A stretch of 64,000 nucleotides of DNA from Candidatus Saccharimonadota bacterium (lineage in GTDB: Bacteria; Patescibacteriota; Saccharimonadia; Saccharimonadales; Saccharimonadaceae). The position numbers and the translations under genes are program-made. Positions 42,956-53,012 of the stretch are shown here, piece by piece. Each line of letters opens with the position of its first letter. The stretch's first letter is position 1. The stretch lies in assembly GCA_017511925.1 (NCBI GenBank), contig JAFWHS010000016.1, positions 1 through 64,000 of the forward strand, given 5' to 3'. The notes beneath the pieces are model-generated. The model ran no database searches. It was not told where the DNA came from and worked only from the letters and a program-made list of their open reading frames with translations.

Positions 42956-45427
42956 TTAACTGTTTTTTCTTATATTTACAGTCACCAAAATCATTTCATC
43001 ATCAGCCTGCGTTAATGAATAGAGTTTGGCTGTCTGCGTAAATATATCTCCGCTAACAAATAAACTCGTGCGATTTGAAGAATCTATTATTTGGTCCATC
43101 ACATTAAAATTAAAGCCCATTGCAGACTGAATTTTTTGTTTTGTGGAGTCAAAATCACTGCCATTCATTTCATTAATACATAAAGTAATATAATATTCCG
43201 AAAGTTCCTTTTTTGCTGCTTCCGCTTCGCGATCATATTCAGCAATACTATCATTAAACTCTTTCTTAATTTCACTATAATCATTCTCTGAATCAAATTC
43301 AGACATAAAATCTATTGCACTTCCTGCCACTCCAAACATACTTTTTGGTAATTCAAACAAGCTATTCGTATTTACCGCGTAACAACCCTGCCCGATCGGA
43401 GAAAGTATGTCGGTTGGCAAAGAAAAACTCAAGTCTTCAAGTCCACCAGGCCCATCAATTTCTTCCGCCAAATCACCGTCCATCACCATAATAGAAGCAA
43501 TATGATCATTTTCTATATCCGAATTTATAACGGCCACAGCTATAACTTTATAATCAGACTCCTTACCTATTGAATATTCACCTTTACCCTCTTCAGTTTT
43601 TATGACTTTCCACTTACCGGACCGATCTTTTCCAACAAACAAAATCGCCCCATCATTTTCAACCGTAATTTTTTTATTTCTATACTCTCCCGTCGGAAAA
43701 TACACATAACGCATAGACGCATAAGATACTTGATAATCTTTTGAACAAAAATCACTACACGGCGCTTCTTCGCCTACCGGCAAAACTCCATCATAGGCAC
43801 GCACCGCTTTCAAATTGCCATAATCATTTGTCAAATTTTTCTCGGCTAATTTTGTCATCACTTCAGCAAACTTTTTCTCGCCAGCCTGATCATGCAAAAA
43901 TTCAAGCGCATCATTAGTACATAATGAGCTCATCGCAATATTAAATCCATTATCCACAATATCTGTATAGTTTAACAAAAAGGCATATGATCCATATCCT
44001 ATATTAGCTGGCACAATTTTATCCAAGGACATCACTACTCCCAATTTCAAATAACCATTATTCTGCCAATTTCTCAAAAAACTTTCTTCGGATGTTGTAT
44101 TGTCTGAAATTTTTGCCGCTAAATAATTCGCAACCGTCTCAGACGTAAACATGTTAGACCCATCTCTCGCAATGCCGTAATTAGCCTGACAAAATAGATT
44201 GGAATAATGATGCCCTAACTCATGAGAAATTATCTGTTCTAAACTCTCATCTCTCAAATTTTGTGAATTTACAGCAATAAAAGGGAAGCTCGGCACACTC
44301 AACGCAAAACTTGATTTTGTTTTATCGTTAATATCGGCAAGGCTATCCAATCTCATTGCTATCCTATTTAATATTTTTGCCGTATCAATACCTGCATAAT
44401 ACGCAAGCACCGTGCTTCCTTCGGAAACCGTCCTCGCAATATACACTGGCATCGCCCGATCCAAAAGATCTTCTTCCAAATTATTATTCTTTAATACTTT
44501 TTTAATTTTTTCTTCTTTCAAAATACCAACTTTGGCTATATCATATGCATATTGAAGCTGAAAGTTTTCTTTGTATCTTCCTGTAATCTTATCAAATTCT
44601 TTTCCAAGCCTCACAACCTCTTCATCAGACACGGCATCATCGCCAGTATCCGTATAAAAAAGCACGAAATTACCGCTAGGACTCTTTTGAGCTTTATTTA
44701 AAACAGTGACTTTTTTAGTTTGCGCATAAGCAGGTTGACTAAATAAACTAGCCCTCCCTACAACATTTGAACTCGCATCAATATCAAAATCGATATTTGC
44801 CAAAGTCATGGCATCAAGCATTTCCTGCAAAGCATCCGCATCAAGATCATCAATATCCTCATTAAACTCCGGCAGACTATCTATAGCCAAACCAAAATTC
44901 TGTTCCGCTTCGCCACTTCCAATGGCATTTATAATTGCTGGCGCAATAAAAAATAATGACAAAATCACTACTGGCAAAACAGCACAGGTACGCCAAAGCC
45001 CACCACCAATTAATTTACCCGCAACTTTCCCGGCAGTCCACTTTTCTTTCTTCCAACGCAAAACCCAGCGCACAGTTCCCCAAACCAAGTTCAAAATACC
45101 CACAACAAGCGCAATCCAAAAAATAATATTTCCCCACTTTTCTCGCGCAATATATGATCCATCCGCATAAGCCGAAGATAGATCCGCGCTTCTTGTCACC
45201 GAAATCCCCACTGGCAAGAAGACCGCCACCACTCCCCAAATCAAAACACGCAGTAACTTTATCCAGCTAAACGATTTCTTAGGTTGCTGTATTTGCTGCA
45301 CCATTGGCCCAGACAATGGTTGTTGCGTAGGCGAATCCAAAACTATAGATGCCGAACCATCTTGTGGAGCCTGGACATCAGGCTCCACTTGTTGCACATT
45401 TTCTGCTTGCTGCGTATTTTCTTCCAT
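42956..45427 (-). CDS. Large membrane-anchored zinc metalloprotease
   Basis: 823 residues. A Gln-rich cytoplasmic tail (about 1-50) is followed by three membrane segments (about 55-75, 98-120, 143-170). A long outer part carries IISHELGHHYSN near residue 400, a full HExxH zinc site with the zincin glutamate offered by TSETVANYLA about 30 residues on (gluzincin-like). A linker segment, SLFSQPAYAQTKK, and several cysteines are seen. The C-terminal 400 residues are not recognised. It is the third gene of the TM2-domain operon. Substrates are unknown; trimming of surface proteins or attack on neighbour-cell proteins are both possible. Confidence 0.82.
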   Translation of the reverse strand: MEENTQQAENVQQVEPDVQAPQDGSASIVLDSPTQQPLSGPMVQQIQQPKKSFSWIKLLRVLIWGVVAVFLPVGISVTRSADLSSAYADGSYIAREKWGNIIFWIALVVGILNLVWGTVRWVLRWKKEKWTAGKVAGKLIGGGLWRTCAVLPVVILSLFFIAPAIINAIGSGEAEQNFGLAIDSLPEFNEDIDDLDADALQEMLDAMTLANIDFDIDASSNVVGRASLFSQPAYAQTKKVTVLNKAQKSPSGNFVLFYTDTGDDAVSDEEVVRLGKEFDKITGRYKENFQLQYAYDIAKVGILKEEKIKKVLKNNNLEEDLLDRAMPVYIARTVSEGSTVLAYYAGIDTAKILNRIAMRLDSLADINDKTKSSFALSVPSFPFIAVNSQNLRDESLEQIISHELGHHYSNLFCQANYGIARDGSNMFTSETVANYLAAKISDNTTSEESFLRNWQNNGYLKLGVVMSLDKIVPANIGYGSYAFLLNYTDIVDNGFNIAMSSLCTNDALEFLHDQAGEKKFAEVMTKLAEKNLTNDYGNLKAVRAYDGVLPVGEEAPCSDFCSKDYQVSYASMRYVYFPTGEYRNKKITVENDGAILFVGKDRSGKWKVIKTEEGKGEYSIGKESDYKVIAVAVINSDIENDHIASIMVMDGDLAEEIDGPGGLEDLSFSLPTDILSPIGQGCYAVNTNSLFELPKSMFGVAGSAIDFMSEFDSENDYSEIKKEFNDSIAEYDREAEAAKKELSEYYITLCINEMNGSDFDSTKQKIQSAMGFNFNVMDQIIDSSNRTSLFVSGDIFTQTAKLYSLTQADDEMILVTVNIRKNS

Positions 45428-45434
45428 AAATTTC

Positions 45435-46433
45435 CTAATCGCAAATTATCTCGCCAATCAATTCCATACAATCACCACTATCGGCATTATAATTTAATTC
45501 GTATATATCAGCCAAATTTTGATAAAACTTATTAAACTCAGTATACATAGCTGAAGTGTCAGAAAACGATAGCGGCGCTATTATGCTAATATCTGGCTTA
45601 TTTGCAGAAATCCAATCACTACGTTCACTCCTCTTACGATTGTATTCATTATACAAACTAGACCAGCCCGTAGTCGCATTATCGTAAGCCTGGTACGCGT
45701 GCGCAGTCTCAAGAGTTTTCTCAAGCCAGCCTTCGCCATAAGTCTTAAATGCATCAATACCAGAATTTATCAAAATATTCGCTGCGGCTTGAAATTTCGA
45801 ATCGGCATCCGTCCAGTTCATGTCATCACTCGCTATCCATTCATGCCAAATTTTATAAATATCAAGTTTTTCAGACAATTCAGCATCATTCGGCACAGCT
45901 TCTAAGATCAATTTTTTGACTTTTTCAAATTGCTCAGAAAGTTCCTTATTCTTTTTTATGCCTTCCGTATTGGCGAGAGTCTCTACTAATCCATCCGTAT
46001 CAGATGCTACTTCCTTACACTTTGTAATATATTTTTCATAATCTTTGTTACTGGTATAGCTAGACTCAACATAATCTACCACATACTCACAATCATAATT
46101 ACTATATATATTATATACTTTACTCTTTAGCTCGCCAGCAGCACGATAAGCTGTAGAATAATCCACTCTTAAAACAATCGGCAAAACAATTGCCAAAACA
46201 GCTCCAATTACCACCAAGCCAGCACCCACGCAAGACCAAGTTATGATAGCTTTTTTCTTCTTTGGATCCATTGGTTGCTTCGGTGGACGCGGAGGATAGG
46301 GCTGCCCATACGGCGCCTGCCCATAAGGCGGTTGCTGTTGTGGATAACCTTGTTGCTGTGGATAGCCTGGCTGCGGCTGATACCCAGGTTGTGATGGATA
46401 CGGCTGCTGTGCCCCCTGCATATTATTGTCCAT
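45435..46433 (-). CDS. Membrane-anchored protein with Pro/Gln/Tyr-rich tail
   Basis: 332 residues, not recognised. The cytoplasmic N-terminus has repeats of PGYPQQQ/PYGQ type (about 1-55), then basic residues and a membrane segment (IITWSCVGAGLVVIGAVLAI, about 68-92). The outer domain of about 240 residues is helical with cysteines at YDCEYVVDY, ITKCKE and SGDCMELIGEIICD. Start at 46433 (MDNNMQ) with GGGAGG upstream, overlapping the TM2 gene by 11 bp. Similar low-complexity tails occur on all three proteins of this operon, which hints that they cluster together at the membrane. Confidence 0.75.
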   Translation of the reverse strand: MDNNMQGAQQPYPSQPGYQPQPGYPQQQGYPQQQPPYGQAPYGQPYPPRPPKQPMDPKKKKAIITWSCVGAGLVVIGAVLAIVLPIVLRVDYSTAYRAAGELKSKVYNIYSNYDCEYVVDYVESSYTSNKDYEKYITKCKEVASDTDGLVETLANTEGIKKNKELSEQFEKVKKLILEAVPNDAELSEKLDIYKIWHEWIASDDMNWTDADSKFQAAANILINSGIDAFKTYGEGWLEKTLETAHAYQAYDNATTGWSSLYNEYNRKRSERSDWISANKPDISIIAPLSFSDTSAMYTEFNKFYQNLADIYELNYNADSGDCMELIGEIICD

Positions 46434-46992
46434 TCTGGCCTCCCATGTCATTTGGCTGAACTTCCGACTGCGGATTAACTGGCTGCTCCGGTGGCATATT
46501 CATCGGTTGCATTGGCGGCATCGGTTGTTGCATTGGCTGTTGCATCGGTTGTACTGGCTGCATTGGTTGCCCGTATTGTGGCTGACCATACTGAGGTTGA
46601 TTGTACTGCGGCTGGCTGTAGCCATATTGTGGCTGATTTACGTAATATCCTTTTGCCGCCAGTCCAGCATCACCTTGCGACAAAATCATAATTCCTTCAA
46701 TCGCTCCCCATATAGCATTACCAGAAGCCACAACACCAGCAACTGCAGATAAAATCCCCGCGATAGCAAAACCAGGAGACCCACCAAGCGCCGCTGCCGC
46801 TACCGAATAAACATCTTTCGGCATTACGATAAACGATATAATACCAAGCAACACCGACGCACCAATCAAGCTAACGTGAATAATACCTTTTTTCTTATCT
46901 CCAAGATACCAACAGTGCGCGCCAAAGCTACCTAGGAAAAGCCCAAGAAGTCCAGCCGTTGTTGCTGATTTAGGGTTGCCGTAATTATTCAT
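46423..46992 (-). CDS. TM2-domain membrane protein with Q/P/M-rich C-terminal tail
   Basis: 189 residues. The first 60 match the TM2 domain plan: AGLLGLFLGSFGAHCWYLGDKKKG, a turn with charged residues, then a second helix. More hydrophobic stretches follow to about residue 108. The last 75 residues are low-complexity repeats of NQPQYGQPQY and PMQPMQQPM type. TM2 proteins are small membrane proteins of uncertain function. It heads the operon with the anchored protein and metalloprotease and sits just behind the riboswitch-like leader at 47032-47158. AAGGAG precedes the ATG. Confidence 0.8.
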   Translation of the reverse strand: MNNYGNPKSATTAGLLGLFLGSFGAHCWYLGDKKKGIIHVSLIGASVLLGIISFIVMPKDVYSVAAAALGGSPGFAIAGILSAVAGVVASGNAIWGAIEGIMILSQGDAGLAAKGYYVNQPQYGYSQPQYNQPQYGQPQYGQPMQPVQPMQQPMQQPMPPMQPMNMPPEQPVNPQSEVQPNDMGGQNGQ

Positions 46993-47031: not shown

Positions 47032-47158
47032 AAAAAAGGACACCGCGAGGTGTCTAATCCTTGTCATAACCCGGGCGATACCCGAAAATTACTTACGCGG
47101 TGCCCATCACTGAGTACCGCAAAGCCAAAGCTATGACAAATTTTAAGGATTAGACACC
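47032..47158 (-). promoter_or_regulatory. Riboswitch-like structured leader with terminator switch, upstream of the TM2 operon
   Basis: On the minus strand TGTTATAAT (TATAAT 47167-47162) starts an RNA at about 47158. P1 is a 14-bp perfect stem, GGTGTCTAATCCTT (47158-47145) with AAGGATTAGACACC (47062-47049). P2 is GTCATA (47137-47132) with TATGAC (47068-47063). Inside are two hairpins: GCGGT (47120-47116)/ACCGC (47101-47097) and CGGG (47084-47081)/CCCG (47075-47072). The 3' strand of P1, GACACC (47054-47049), can pair instead with a second GGTGTC (47044-47039) that is followed by a run of six T: an intrinsic terminator. P1 and terminator exclude each other, so a stabilised P1 would turn the operon on. 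The start codon is 40 nt beyond the T run. No known class was recognised. Confidence 0.72.
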
Positions 47159-47198
47159 ATAATTATAACACAATTTGAAAAAACACAAACATTTTGCA

Positions 47199-47244: not shown

Positions 47245-49416
47245 CTACACGCCGATCATCGACAGGCTGAGTTTTCCACCATCAATCGCCACTAATCTCA
47301 CGCGTACTTTATCTCCTACATGCAATACTTCATCAACTTTTTTGAGTCTCCTACCTTCCACAATTTGCGAAATATGGAGCATACCGTCAATTCCAGGCAT
47401 AATATTCACAAATGCCCCAAAATCTTTGATCGATACTACTGTACCTTCATAAATTTTCCCTACTTCTGGCTCCTCAGTCAAACTCTTGATCCAATCTAAT
47501 GCTTTCTTAATCTTTTCCGGATCATTACCGCTCACCGTCACAAGACCAGAATCCTCAATATCTACTCCAGCTCCAGTTTCTGAAGTAATCTTGTTGATCA
47601 TCTCGCCACCCTTGCCAATCACCGCACCAATCTTTTCAGGCTTAATCATCAATTTTTCAATCCTCGGTGCATATTTCGAAATCTCTTTCTTCGGCTCGGC
47701 AATTACACTTACGATATGATCCAAAATAAACATTCTACCTTCGTGGCTCTGCTTAATCGCCTTTTCAAGAATTTCTACTGGGAGACCATGTACTTTCATA
47801 TCCATCTGAAGCGCCGTCACACCTTCAGTTGTACCAGTTACCTTAAAGTCCATATCACCAGCAAAATCCTCTGCATCCATAAGATCAGTCAGTACATATG
47901 CCTTATCAATATCGTCAGCAGTAATTGGCTGTCCCTTTGGCACATCCACCATGAGGCCCATTGCTACACCAGATACCGGTCTTTTAAGTGGCACACCCGC
48001 ATCCATCAAAGCCATACAGCTTGAACAAGTCGCAGCCATCGAAGTCGAACCATTTTGCGACATAATCTCAGTCACTGAACGAATCGCATAGGGAAACTCC
48101 TCTTCACTTGGCAATACCGGCATCAAAGCCCTCTCTGCCAAATAGCCATGCCCAATTTCACGACGCCCCGGCGAGCCAATCCTACCCGGTTCGCCTACCG
48201 TATATGATGGCGCATTATAATGATGCATATAACGACGCTTGCCGTCCGTTACCTCCATCGTATCTACTTCTTGCGCATAAGACAAAGGCGCCAAAGTCAC
48301 AATATTCATCGCTTGAGTCACACCACGCGTAAAGAGAGAAGAACCGTGTACTCTCGGCAAAATTGAAACTTGGCTAGACAAAGGTCTCACTTCGTTCAAT
48401 TTGCGCCCATCTGGCCTTACTCCCTCTTCTACAATCCCCCGCCTCACTTCCTTATGTACAGCTAGTTCAAACGCCTGATCATACACGTCGCGCAAATTTT
48501 CATCGTACCATTCAACTTTTTCGTTATCAGTATCACCTTCACCCTTAGAAAGTGCAAATTCGTCATGCATCGCATATTTGATGTCATCAAGCATCTGTGC
48601 CCGCTCCATCACATTGCCACGCACTTTCGAGCCAAATTTGCCCTTTGTCCACTCGGCTACTTCTTCCATCACAGCCTCATCCGGCAAAACCAATTCATAT
48701 TCTTGCTCTTTTGCAGCTACCTGTTTCGATAACTCTCTCTGGAGATCCAGCACCGGCTGTACATTCTTCACCGCCCAGTGCATAGCCTCAATAATAGTAT
48801 CTTCCGGCACTTCGTTTGCGCCAGCCTCTACCATCATTACCTTACCATCCTTACAGGCTACTACGAGATCAAGCGGGGAAGCTTCACGCTCTTCCGCACT
48901 TAAGAATCCCTTAAATTCACCCCCAATTCTACCAATACGAATCCCGGCTACTGGGCCATCAAACGGCACGCCAGCGTTCATAAGTGCCGAGCTTGCCGCA
49001 ATCATCGCTACACAGTCTGGCCTAAAACTTGGATCCATCGAAAGCACTGTACATACCACCTGTACCTCTTGACGATAACCCTTAGGGAATAGCGGGCGAA
49101 TCGGACGATCAATCAACCGCCCCACTAGCACAGCCTCATCCGCCGGCTTGCCTTCGCGCTTAATAAATTTCGAACCGCTAATTTTCCCCGCCGCATAAAA
49201 CTTCTCTTCGTAATCAATCGAGAGAGGGAAAAAGTCCTGCACTACCGGCTTCGTACCCACTACCACCGATCCAAGCACTACGGTATCGCCATAAGTCACA
49301 AGTACCGACGAAGTAGTACGGAATCCTACTCTGTTTACCTCTAGCGTCAATTCACGACCAAGCCACTCTGTAGAAAGCCTCACGGTCTTCTTACCATTAG
49401 GGTTTATAATATCCAT
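47245..49416 (-). CDS. pnp: Polynucleotide phosphorylase
   Basis: 723 residues. Two RNase PH-like domains separated by an all-helical linker, then KH (IGAVIGKGGEMINKITSETG) and S1 (GKIYEGTVVSIKDFGAFVNIMPG) RNA-binding domains. GSSLFTRGVTQAM and the downstream DIPYAEEF-like region (VLPSEEEFPYAIR) mark the second catalytic domain. It degrades RNA phosphorolytically from the 3' end. AGAAAGGAT precedes the ATG. Its leader (about 85 nt from TATAAT at 49503-49498) holds a hairpin with stem CAGATA/TATCTG, a possible autocontrol site as known for pnp in other bacteria. Confidence 0.97.
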   Translation of the reverse strand: MDIINPNGKKTVRLSTEWLGRELTLEVNRVGFRTTSSVLVTYGDTVVLGSVVVGTKPVVQDFFPLSIDYEEKFYAAGKISGSKFIKREGKPADEAVLVGRLIDRPIRPLFPKGYRQEVQVVCTVLSMDPSFRPDCVAMIAASSALMNAGVPFDGPVAGIRIGRIGGEFKGFLSAEEREASPLDLVVACKDGKVMMVEAGANEVPEDTIIEAMHWAVKNVQPVLDLQRELSKQVAAKEQEYELVLPDEAVMEEVAEWTKGKFGSKVRGNVMERAQMLDDIKYAMHDEFALSKGEGDTDNEKVEWYDENLRDVYDQAFELAVHKEVRRGIVEEGVRPDGRKLNEVRPLSSQVSILPRVHGSSLFTRGVTQAMNIVTLAPLSYAQEVDTMEVTDGKRRYMHHYNAPSYTVGEPGRIGSPGRREIGHGYLAERALMPVLPSEEEFPYAIRSVTEIMSQNGSTSMAATCSSCMALMDAGVPLKRPVSGVAMGLMVDVPKGQPITADDIDKAYVLTDLMDAEDFAGDMDFKVTGTTEGVTALQMDMKVHGLPVEILEKAIKQSHEGRMFILDHIVSVIAEPKKEISKYAPRIEKLMIKPEKIGAVIGKGGEMINKITSETGAGVDIEDSGLVTVSGNDPEKIKKALDWIKSLTEEPEVGKIYEGTVVSIKDFGAFVNIMPGIDGMLHISQIVEGRRLKKVDEVLHVGDKVRVRLVAIDGGKLSLSMIGV

Positions 49417-50997: not shown

Positions 50998-51293
50998 TAT
51001 ACTTAAGGTGCAACAATTCAATAATATAAGTCACTAGTTATTTTTATAACATCGGCTTGAATATAAATGGCATCGTAAGGAAGTCTAATGTTCAAGCTAG
51101 TTCTAGCTAGTGATGATTATTGGATTGTTGCACCCCTTGCGGTGCCATTTTTGTGCATGATCCAAATAAATAAAATAAGTGGCACCGCAAGGAGGATTGG
51201 GGGCATTAGGATACTAGCCAGAGCCATGGCTAAGTAGAGTGTGGGGGAAATAAAAAGTAGGGGGGACATAACAATACTAAGTGAGGTAGCCAC
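50998..51293 (+). promoter_or_regulatory. Long structured leader of the FISUMP surface-protein gene (334-bp gene-free stretch)
   Basis: TGTTATACT (TATACT 50998-51003) starts the RNA near 51007. P1 is 19 bp with one wobble: GGTGCAACAATTCAATAAT (51007-51025) with 51116-51134. Inside are CACTAG (51032-51037)/CTAGTG (51107-51112) and GCTTGAA (51055-51061)/TTCAAGC (51091-51097) with a 29-nt apical loop. The 3' strand end GCACC (51130-51134) can pair instead with GGTGC (51141-51145), followed by CATTTTT: a competing terminator. A third alternative is a perfect 13-bp stem 51135-51147/51180-51192 that would break the terminator and partly cover AAGGAGG at 51189-51195. From 51196 to 51293 nothing is recognised except GAGGT before the ATG. 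Confidence 0.6.
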
Positions 51294-53012
51294 ATGAAGA
51301 TCAAGCACTATCAACCATTAACCTATATTACTTATAGTATAGTAGGTATTACAGTATTAGCTGGTATGTTATTATCATGTAATATACCTATCTTCCCAGG
51401 AATAAGCGTTAATGGTTCTACATCAGCTCTCACTCAGACTACTACAGCCAATGCTGCCATCCGTGTTAAATCCACCTGTTCTATGACCGCTAATATACAA
51501 CCAGGTGAAGAACATACAGCTACTATGATCAATGGACAATATAAAGAAGATATAGGACTAACCACTATACAAACCTTCTGTAATGATCCCAATGGCTATG
51601 CAATCTATGCTATAGGCTATACTGGAGAAGATGCAGGAGTAGCAGAAGGAACTAATACAGTCCTGCATAGTAATGCACTAGGTAGTACTTACGATATCAT
51701 TACTGGCACTAGTACTAATGGACTAGATAATGATGATACTTCTAACTGGGCTATGAAACTAACTGCTCTAGGTACTACTGATACTTATAGACCTAATATA
51801 CTAAGTGATGATAATGGATCATTCAGTGACTACCATATAGTACCATCTACCTATACCAAAGTAGCTTCCTATCCTACTGCTACTGACCTAGATAATCCTG
51901 CCAGTACTAGACTAGGCTCTAACCTCACTACTACCTATGCTGCCTATATCTCCAATACTCAACCTGCTGGAACTTATGAAGGGCAGGTGAAGTATGTATT
52001 AGTTAACCCAAGTACTATGGAAACACCATACTATATGCAGAATGTAGATGAGTGGGGCGATACTATAGCCATAGGTCAGGAAGTTACAGTCTATGACATA
52101 AGAGACGAGAAATCCTATACAGTGAGACGTATGTGTATGAGTGGCACTGGCAATAGTGGCTGCAACATAAACGACTCTATGCTCTGGATGACCCAGAATC
52201 TAGACCTAGACTTAGACAAGAACACAGAACTCACTTCAGAAGACACTGATCTTAATGTAGTAGATGATAAGGCTTATAATACTGGATACACTAAAGATGC
52301 ATTAGGCGTTATCCACTGGGCTCCAGCTACAACAACTATTACCAGCGTCAACACTTCAACCGGTAGGTTCAATGGCTGGGCGAGCAATTATAACGTCGCT
52401 TACTCCGCTGACCCAGATGCCGGCAACCCAGATAACCCATGGTATGCTACAGGTGAAGCTTATAACTCCAACCTATGTTATGTAAGCAGCAATAACCAAA
52501 CCTGTAACTACCTTAACGTAAACAACACTGTAGCCCCTACCTACTTTAGCCACACAGTCTTCACTACTAATGGTAATCATGGTAAGATTGGAAACTACTA
52601 CAACTGGTCTGCAGCGATAGCCTCCAACAATTCCAGTGGCTATAGCACTAGCACCTACAATAACATAGCCAATAACCCTCAGAACTCTATCTGCCCTAAG
52701 GGTTGGCGGTTGCCCACTATATCTAGTGTAGCGGCTAAGAGCGAATTCGCCAAATTAAATAATGTATATAATGGCGGTAGTACAAGTGATGGTAATAAGT
52801 TAGTTCAAAGCCCACTTTACTTGGTCCGGTCCGGCTACGTGGACGATGGCGCCCTTCTTAACTACGCAGGGTACAACGGCATCTACTGGTCTAGTACAGT
52901 GAGCAATGCTTACGGCGCATACACCTTGAGCTTCCGTAGTGATAACGTTAACCCTGCCGGCAGCTACAGCAGGCTCGTCGGCTGGTCAGTGCGCTGCGTC
53001 TCTGATTATTAA
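51294..53012 (+). CDS. Secreted FISUMP-domain surface protein (572 aa)
   Basis: A signal peptide or anchor (about 10-32) is followed by an N-terminal domain with two cysteines (VKSTCSMTANI, IQTFCNDPNGYAIYAIGY). From about residue 275 the Fibrobacter succinogenes major paralogous (FISUMP) pattern appears: MLWMTQNLDLDL, then YYNWSAAIA, ICPKGWRLPTIS, IYWSSTVSNAYGAYTLSF and the end VGWSVRCVSDY. This C-type-lectin-like fold is used for ligand binding. Base composition changes within the gene: the 5' two thirds favour codons ending in A or T (CTA, ATA, ACT), the last 200 nt are much richer in G+C. That mosaic suggests a separately exchanged or diversified 3' end. It is not in an operon. Confidence 0.82.
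   Translation: MKIKHYQPLTYITYSIVGITVLAGMLLSCNIPIFPGISVNGSTSALTQTTTANAAIRVKSTCSMTANIQPGEEHTATMINGQYKEDIGLTTIQTFCNDPNGYAIYAIGYTGEDAGVAEGTNTVLHSNALGSTYDIITGTSTNGLDNDDTSNWAMKLTALGTTDTYRPNILSDDNGSFSDYHIVPSTYTKVASYPTATDLDNPASTRLGSNLTTTYAAYISNTQPAGTYEGQVKYVLVNPSTMETPYYMQNVDEWGDTIAIGQEVTVYDIRDEKSYTVRRMCMSGTGNSGCNINDSMLWMTQNLDLDLDKNTELTSEDTDLNVVDDKAYNTGYTKDALGVIHWAPATTTITSVNTSTGRFNGWASNYNVAYSADPDAGNPDNPWYATGEAYNSNLCYVSSNNQTCNYLNVNNTVAPTYFSHTVFTTNGNHGKIGNYYNWSAAIASNNSSGYSTSTYNNIANNPQNSICPKGWRLPTISSVAAKSEFAKLNNVYNGGSTSDGNKLVQSPLYLVRSGYVDDGALLNYAGYNGIYWSSTVSNAYGAYTLSFRSDNVNPAGSYSRLVGWSVRCVSDY

Follow-up and report, generated by a model that had tools for sequence, protein, structure and literature searches.

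In terminator-type riboswitch platforms, such as those of the c-di-GMP-I and purine classes, P1 and the terminator pair to the exclusion of each other; antisense-RNA attenuation of the pT181 repC type employs long hairpins, exposed loops and mutually exclusive terminator pairing; and the processive antitermination RNAs (EAR, put and the LoaP-associated elements) are 5' leader RNAs with a presumed role in the passage of the polymerase into surface and envelope genes. The locus described here invites comparison with all of these. It lies in a stretch of 64,000 nucleotides, hereinafter the window, that opens contig JAFWHS010000016.1 of a Candidatus Saccharimonadota bacterium (GCA_017511925.1). 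Between pnp (47245-49416) and a TM2-domain gene (46423-46992), the minus strand carries a promoter-proximal leader (47158-47032) with a 14-bp P1 that shares its 3' strand with an intrinsic terminator, where it provides the 5' arm. In our estimate, there is roughly a two-in-three probability (about 0.68) that this leader is a cis-acting transcription attenuator, one of a family of leader RNAs that, in the tiny host-dependent Saccharibacteria, set how much transcription continues into genes for envelope proteins. The helices, the way in which they exclude each other and covary, the placement of the promoter and the composition of the regulon are computational results, beginning with the anatomy of the copy in the window and of the genes behind it:

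47162-47170, minus strand: extended -10 promoter element TGTTATAAT, read in the sequence, 3 nt ahead of the 14-bp P1
47145-47158, minus strand: P1 5' strand GGTGTCTAATCCTT, with 14 perfect pairs and family-wide covariation; its first base is the likely transcript start
47049-47062, minus strand: P1 3' strand AAGGATTAGACACC, ending in the 6 nt GACACC (47054-47049) that serve at the same time as the 5' arm of the terminator
47062-47138, minus strand: rod interior, made up in this copy of P2 and two inner hairpins (MFE fold)
about 47138-47129 and 47071-47062, minus strand: P2 arms of this copy (MFE fold)
47096-47105, minus strand: apical-loop core GGGCACCGCG, complementary over 10 bp to the terminator 3' arm, with within-element covariation across 51 distinct elements
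47032-47054, minus strand: intrinsic terminator GACACC-TCGC-GGTGTC-CTTTTTT (terminator scan)
47047-47038, minus strand: terminator arm CGCGGTGTCC, able to pair with the apical loop, by complementarity and covariation
46423-46992, minus strand: gene for a TM2-domain membrane protein (Pfam TM2, E 1.5e-10), the first behind the leader; in L024 and L072, relatives follow a leader of this kind
45435-46451, minus strand: probable second gene of the operon, a membrane-anchored protein with no Pfam match
42956-45427, minus strand: probable third gene of the operon, a large membrane protein with a HELGHH zinc-protease-like motif and no Pfam match

A sequence-only reading of this DNA had taken the locus for a candidate new riboswitch, and what it said of the anatomy is borne out: the dedicated promoter directly before the element, the perfect P1, P2 with its two inner hairpins, the sharing of GACACC between P1 and the terminator, and the TM2 gene downstream. 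The MFE fold of this copy has an energy of -54.5 kcal/mol (z = -6.85), and none of 200 dinucleotide shuffles is equally stable. The reading could not place the element among the TPP, SAM, purine, fluoride, ZTP, guanidine or c-di-GMP classes; among the 4227 families of Rfam 15, no match reaches the gathering threshold at the window element, nor does any at the element in 20 divergent loci; under permissive thresholds, the matches at the element do not rise above chance. The permissive search also produced a match of a eukaryotic miRNA model to a separate, A/T-rich perfect hairpin (AAAAAATAAATTGGGAT/ATCCCAATTTATTTTTT, 47235-47196 on the minus strand) that lies 3' of pnp and is likely the pnp terminator. 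In the open-licence PMC papers searched, a library of partial coverage, no account of an RNA of this kind in Saccharibacteria came to light. We are therefore dealing with what is apparently a large, undescribed family of leader RNAs, the novelty of which beyond Rfam 15 is likely rather than proven given that partial coverage.

The extent of the family became apparent from several searches. A DNA search of 60 relatives yielded two clear homologues and one partial homologue elsewhere that pointed to the terminator as a conserved part, and a 15-base terminator pattern located about 23 true copies within the genus, with several in a single genome, once matches that were coding or unrelated (L006, L009, L010, L011, L015, L026 and L028) had been dropped. 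The covariance model R1, built from 16 genus copies, has matches in 53 of 174 same-genus genomes, and R2, built from 54 elements, in 44 of 295 genomes of the order, distributed over 24 of 143 genera. In a phylum-wide sample, the R2 matches are confined almost entirely to the same family; the one strong case beyond it is L109, from a different order of the class. A scan of 84,980 species with an exact pattern returned 28 stretches, of which nearly all bear the label Saccharibacteria or Patescibacteria (Nomurabacteria among them), the exceptions by label being two given only as 'bacterium' and one termite-gut MAG given as 'Oscillospiraceae'. Weak R2 matches outside the class, such as L111 (G762), are not taken as proof of spread. 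The other element-like match outside the class, L110 (G744), combines a 14-bp P1 with a 15-bp loop:arm match; it is located on a short contig of a fragmented genome and hence is possibly a contaminant. In one genome (L112, 53-397, plus strand), the element directly follows the RNase P RNA gene. The host genome itself contains 12 copies, two of them within the window.

The homologues show strong covariation of P1, with compensatory changes. Over the 54-element alignment, 98.5% of the P1 cells are paired, and 7 of the 9 pairs have changed on both sides, with as many as four or five types of pair; this alignment was fitted to a model that contains P1 and accordingly favours it, and the first alignment, made with plain MAFFT and independent of that fit, gives the same result. 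Equally independent of the fit is the permutation of P1 partners between elements, which cuts the median helix from 13 to 5 bp. The covariation score for P1 together with the pairing of the apical loop to the terminator arm (loop:arm) is 0.450; shuffling lowers it to 0.148 ± 0.008, and sliding to 0.077 or less. The P1/terminator architecture recurs with compensatory changes in dozens of loci, far more than expected by chance, the mutually exclusive antiterminator and terminator helices being preserved by these changes as befits an attenuator. As to the promoter, a -10 box with at least 5 of 6 matches is present in 75 of 77 elements, carries the TG extension in 59 and ends exactly 5 nt before the aligned start of P1 in 61, so that, judging from the sequence, the promoter lies immediately upstream and the transcript is predicted to begin at the structure.

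Dispersed copies with terminal inverted repeats and three related 12-mers per element could also be expected of a mobile inverted-repeat element (MITE), an integron attC-type site or a DNA operator that does not act as RNA at all. We consider this extremely improbable: the terminal repeats are not the same from copy to copy, and a change on one side is compensated on the other, G-U pairs being tolerated; the spacing of the -10 box is strict, and a gene follows on the same strand; and the exact-pattern scan found no element in viral contigs. Transposon ends, for their part, would be near-identical between copies, whereas here P1 pairs within the element (median helix of 13 bp) and not between elements (5 bp with partners permuted). 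As a separate matter, many element matches fall at contig starts, and assemblies often break within a few hundred bases 3' of the element (G000:C18, G168:C39, G190:C8/C51, G194:C11, G022:C29); paralogous genes behind the element share near-identical 5' ends, which, together with the assembly breaks, suggests repeated or rapidly exchanged surface-protein loci.

What, then, is the common form of these leaders? It is a rod of 27-52 enclosing base pairs with internal loops and a single apical loop (median 23 nt), the linkers being about 2 and 7 nt long; rod length and interior differ widely among the elements (111-190 nt; 27-52 bp). Strong conservation is nearly confined to the base of P1, the loop, the terminator and the promoter, and in the first three of these it is explained by base pairing. 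Elsewhere conservation is weak, about 1 bit, in a U-run in the 5' half and in AAUnGG before the P1 3' strand. These features bear directly on the idea of a metabolite riboswitch in which the three-way junction of the window copy would be an aptamer that stabilises P1. The leader position, the P1/terminator switch and the nearly isoenergetic states are what an expression platform needs, and the weakly conserved U-run and AAUnGG do lie around the P1/P2 junction. However, the two-hairpin junction is found in the window copy and in the TM2 relative L024 and is not family-wide, no column outside the pairing elements comes near the conservation of an aptamer core, and the downstream genes encode envelope proteins rather than a pathway or transporter set. 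The strongly conserved core of unpaired or junction bases that marks riboswitch aptamers is absent from the conservation profile of the family, which speaks against a metabolite pocket while saying nothing against an effector that is a protein or an RNA. A metabolite riboswitch appears very unlikely to us, and of the original riboswitch proposal, the cis-regulatory leader with its exclusive P1/terminator switch is supported whereas the conserved three-way-junction aptamer is not. A new leader RNA attenuator is well supported; a metabolite aptamer is not.

The attenuator might operate as follows. Transcription would start at the first base of P1, and the RNA would fold into the long rod with its large apical loop. 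As long as the last paired bases (GACA or GCA, plus CC) stay in P1, this helix would serve as the antiterminator, and the system would be ON; shifted into the adjacent intrinsic terminator hairpin, the same bases would turn it OFF, with termination in vivo. Energy models that leave out pseudoknots and co-transcriptional kinetics, in which the local terminator is either forced or forbidden, give a difference between the terminator and the P1-intact state with a median of -0.9 kcal/mol over 74 elements (interquartile range -1.1 to -0.3), and with a shuffled P1 5' strand the median falls to -6.8 kcal/mol. In these models, P1 would be an antiterminator worth about 6 kcal/mol that leaves the system balanced, or poised, which agrees with the earlier suggestion that P1 favours read-through. 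The near-equality of the two states comes from the fact that the 5' base of P1 and the 3' arm of the terminator carry the same sequence (mostly TGTC/GTGTC or TGC/GTGCC, with TATC/GTATC in L063), and implies that a small bias decides the state. The source of that bias is probably not a metabolite in a conserved pocket; a protein, an RNA partner or the kinetics of folding is more likely.

Three features of the family did not figure in the sequence-only reading, namely a second copy in the window, the envelope-protein regulon and the complementarity between the apical loop and the terminator arm. The last of these involves a loop sequence of 10-18 nt that is complementary to the terminator 3' arm and covaries with it within the element. 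At six positions outside the local hairpin, 246 of 306 loop:arm pairs are Watson-Crick, compared to 172 ± 6 when the partners are permuted between elements (0 of 5000 permutations), in a test on 51 distinct elements, the sequences of which are related and hence not independent; the loop:arm pairing was part of no model. Different families have different matched pairs (CACGG/CCGUG, UACGG/CCGUA, GGCGGUGUCCC/GGGGCAUCGCC), and the match extends to other families and one other order (L109-L122); in L063 it is lost. The predicted loop:arm duplex has a mean energy of -23.6 kcal/mol against -7.7 kcal/mol for the local hairpin and is the stronger of the two by more than 5 kcal/mol in 76 of 77 elements. 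By capturing the terminator 3' arm, the apical loop may provide a second antiterminating lock, so that P1 and loop capture would both correspond to the ON state.

The same helix, however, could be read in the opposite sense. Being long, rich in G+C and abutting the U-tract, it could itself be a terminator, a pseudoknot helix to which the local hairpin would be secondary. Apart from its greater predicted stability, this reading draws on a pairing that runs as far as the U-tract and covaries at the last two bases ahead of it, and on L023 and L073, which have lost a stable local hairpin and kept the loop:arm match. Conversely, the helix would have to form against a preformed rod of 27-52 bp and is contained in 0 of 77 MFE folds, whereas nearly every element has the local hairpin, at a distance from the U-tract that is usual. 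We regard loop:arm termination as unlikely. The steric difficulty also touches the antiterminating lock: a full loop:arm helix of 13-16 bp next to an intact rod is sterically doubtful, and capture in cis may therefore require bending or partial opening of the rod, or the loop may act differently.

The second copy in the window precedes a gene for a large surface protein, located together with it (51009-53012, plus strand) between truB and the recA region:

51009-51152, plus strand: second copy of the element, with P1 TGCAACAAT/ATTGTTGCA read in the sequence (R2 match, E 6.6e-14)
51065-51080, plus strand: its loop core (sequence)
51135-51152, plus strand: its terminator arm and U-tract (sequence)
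51180-51192, plus strand: third complementary site, A' (TGGCACCGCAAGG), a perfect complement of the terminator arm of this copy, inside its 5' UTR
51294-53012, plus strand: surface protein of 572 aa with an N-terminal membrane segment and a C-terminal FISUMP-like domain (weak Pfam Fib_succ_major match, E 3e-4, under the curated cut-off)

In the FISUMP leaders of the host genome, A' lies 22-26 nt past the U-tract, with a match of 14-18 nt to the arm; the TM2 leader has no such site. The A' 12-mer pairs with the arm without wobble, whereas for the loop one to three G-U pairs are usual, which makes an order of preference from local hairpin to loop to A' plausible; A' may take over the arm once the polymerase has read through. 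Roughly 10-200 nt 3' of the terminator, the long 5' UTRs of eight loci (L013, L016, L018, L025, L030, L034, L041 and L044) contain another conserved block, AGUUCCUU..ACGACCAAACAUGACCUUA..GUUUGG, with a CCAAAC/GUUUGG hairpin that is often followed by GCGACAYCC(A)AGGUGGC; this block could be the counterpart of A' or a second RNA element.

The similarity among the copies of one genome raises the possibility of action in trans, whereby the terminated leader would persist as a stable sRNA, the loop of which pairs with the arms of other nascent leaders and so couples the surface-protein family. The anatomy, a long rod with an exposed loop of about 23 nt, is that of an antisense RNA, and in 11 of the 12 copies the sequences of loop, arm and A' are interchangeable, these 12-mers occurring nowhere else in the genome: the pattern GGCAYCGYAAGG has 32 sites in the host genome, all in leaders as loop, arm or A', with no additional trans partner outside them, and the reversed control pattern has none. 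Yet loop and arm covary within single elements, pairing over 13.4 bp within and the weaker 10.4 bp between elements, and the TM2 copy in the window matches itself best (GGGCACCGCG/CGCGGTGTCC). Action in trans thus seems highly doubtful to us.

The attenuator reading also fits the genes behind the leaders, which lie on the same strand and form a consistent functional class of membrane-anchored or secreted envelope proteins. An N-terminal transmembrane or signal segment is encoded in 40 of the 43 downstream genes with a recognisable start, compared to 24 of 78 background ORFs (p = 6e-12). Among the products are many large surface proteins that carry a FISUMP domain at the C-terminus, over the Pfam cut-off in L046, L047, L066 and L071 and under it in others; OmpA-like, lysozyme plus amidase, YgjV and TM2 proteins are also found. 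The TM2 relatives in two other species (L024 and L072, the latter with 47% identity to the window protein) retain the leader, and the leader is kept in L024 and L002, where the gene upstream differs.

The control of differentiation between free and host-attached cells in Patescibacteria has been described as completely unknown (PMC11665869), which lends interest to a tractable RNA switch placed before surface genes. Present in as many as a dozen or more copies in a genome, ahead of envelope proteins that may face the host bacterium, the leader family offers an entry point and predicts co-regulated genes, transcript ends and bases to mutate. An intriguing extension, which we consider unlikely, is a Patescibacteria-specific, aptamer-free poised switch in which the loop acts on the arm both in cis and in trans, such that a dozen surface-protein genes set each other's expression; if true, this network could be part of the switch between the host-attached and free-swimming states. 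The nearly isoenergetic exchange combined with a loop complementary to the terminator arm also makes for an unusual attenuator design.

How does this design relate to the described systems? The T-box leaders (RF00230) come to mind because the loop of the family often reads UGGCACCGC, resembling the T-box UGGNACCGCG, and the terminator/antiterminator logic and the multiple copies are likewise reminiscent. However, the element is a single rod that lacks Stem I and the specifier loop and matches no Rfam family; moreover, the leading base of UGGN may be C, G or U and changes in step with the terminator arm (C-G in 33, G-C in 6 and U-A in 5 of 51), so that pairing with the tRNA NCCA is not conserved. 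With the terminator-type riboswitches, the family shares the leader position, the use of the P1 3' strand as the terminator 5' arm and on/off control by exclusive pairing; unlike them, it has a variable rod interior, with no conserved aptamer core or known ligand, a loop complementary to the terminator 3' arm and a regulon of surface proteins. The likeness to pT181 repC attenuation resides in the long hairpin, the exposed loop and the exclusive terminator pairing, the difference being that no separate antisense gene was found and that loop and target belong to the same transcript and covary in cis. Finally, like the processive antitermination RNAs, these are 5' leaders thought to control the passage of the polymerase into surface and envelope genes; in contrast to them, and with no match in Rfam, each leader of the family carries its own adjacent terminator and its own exchange between P1 and that terminator.
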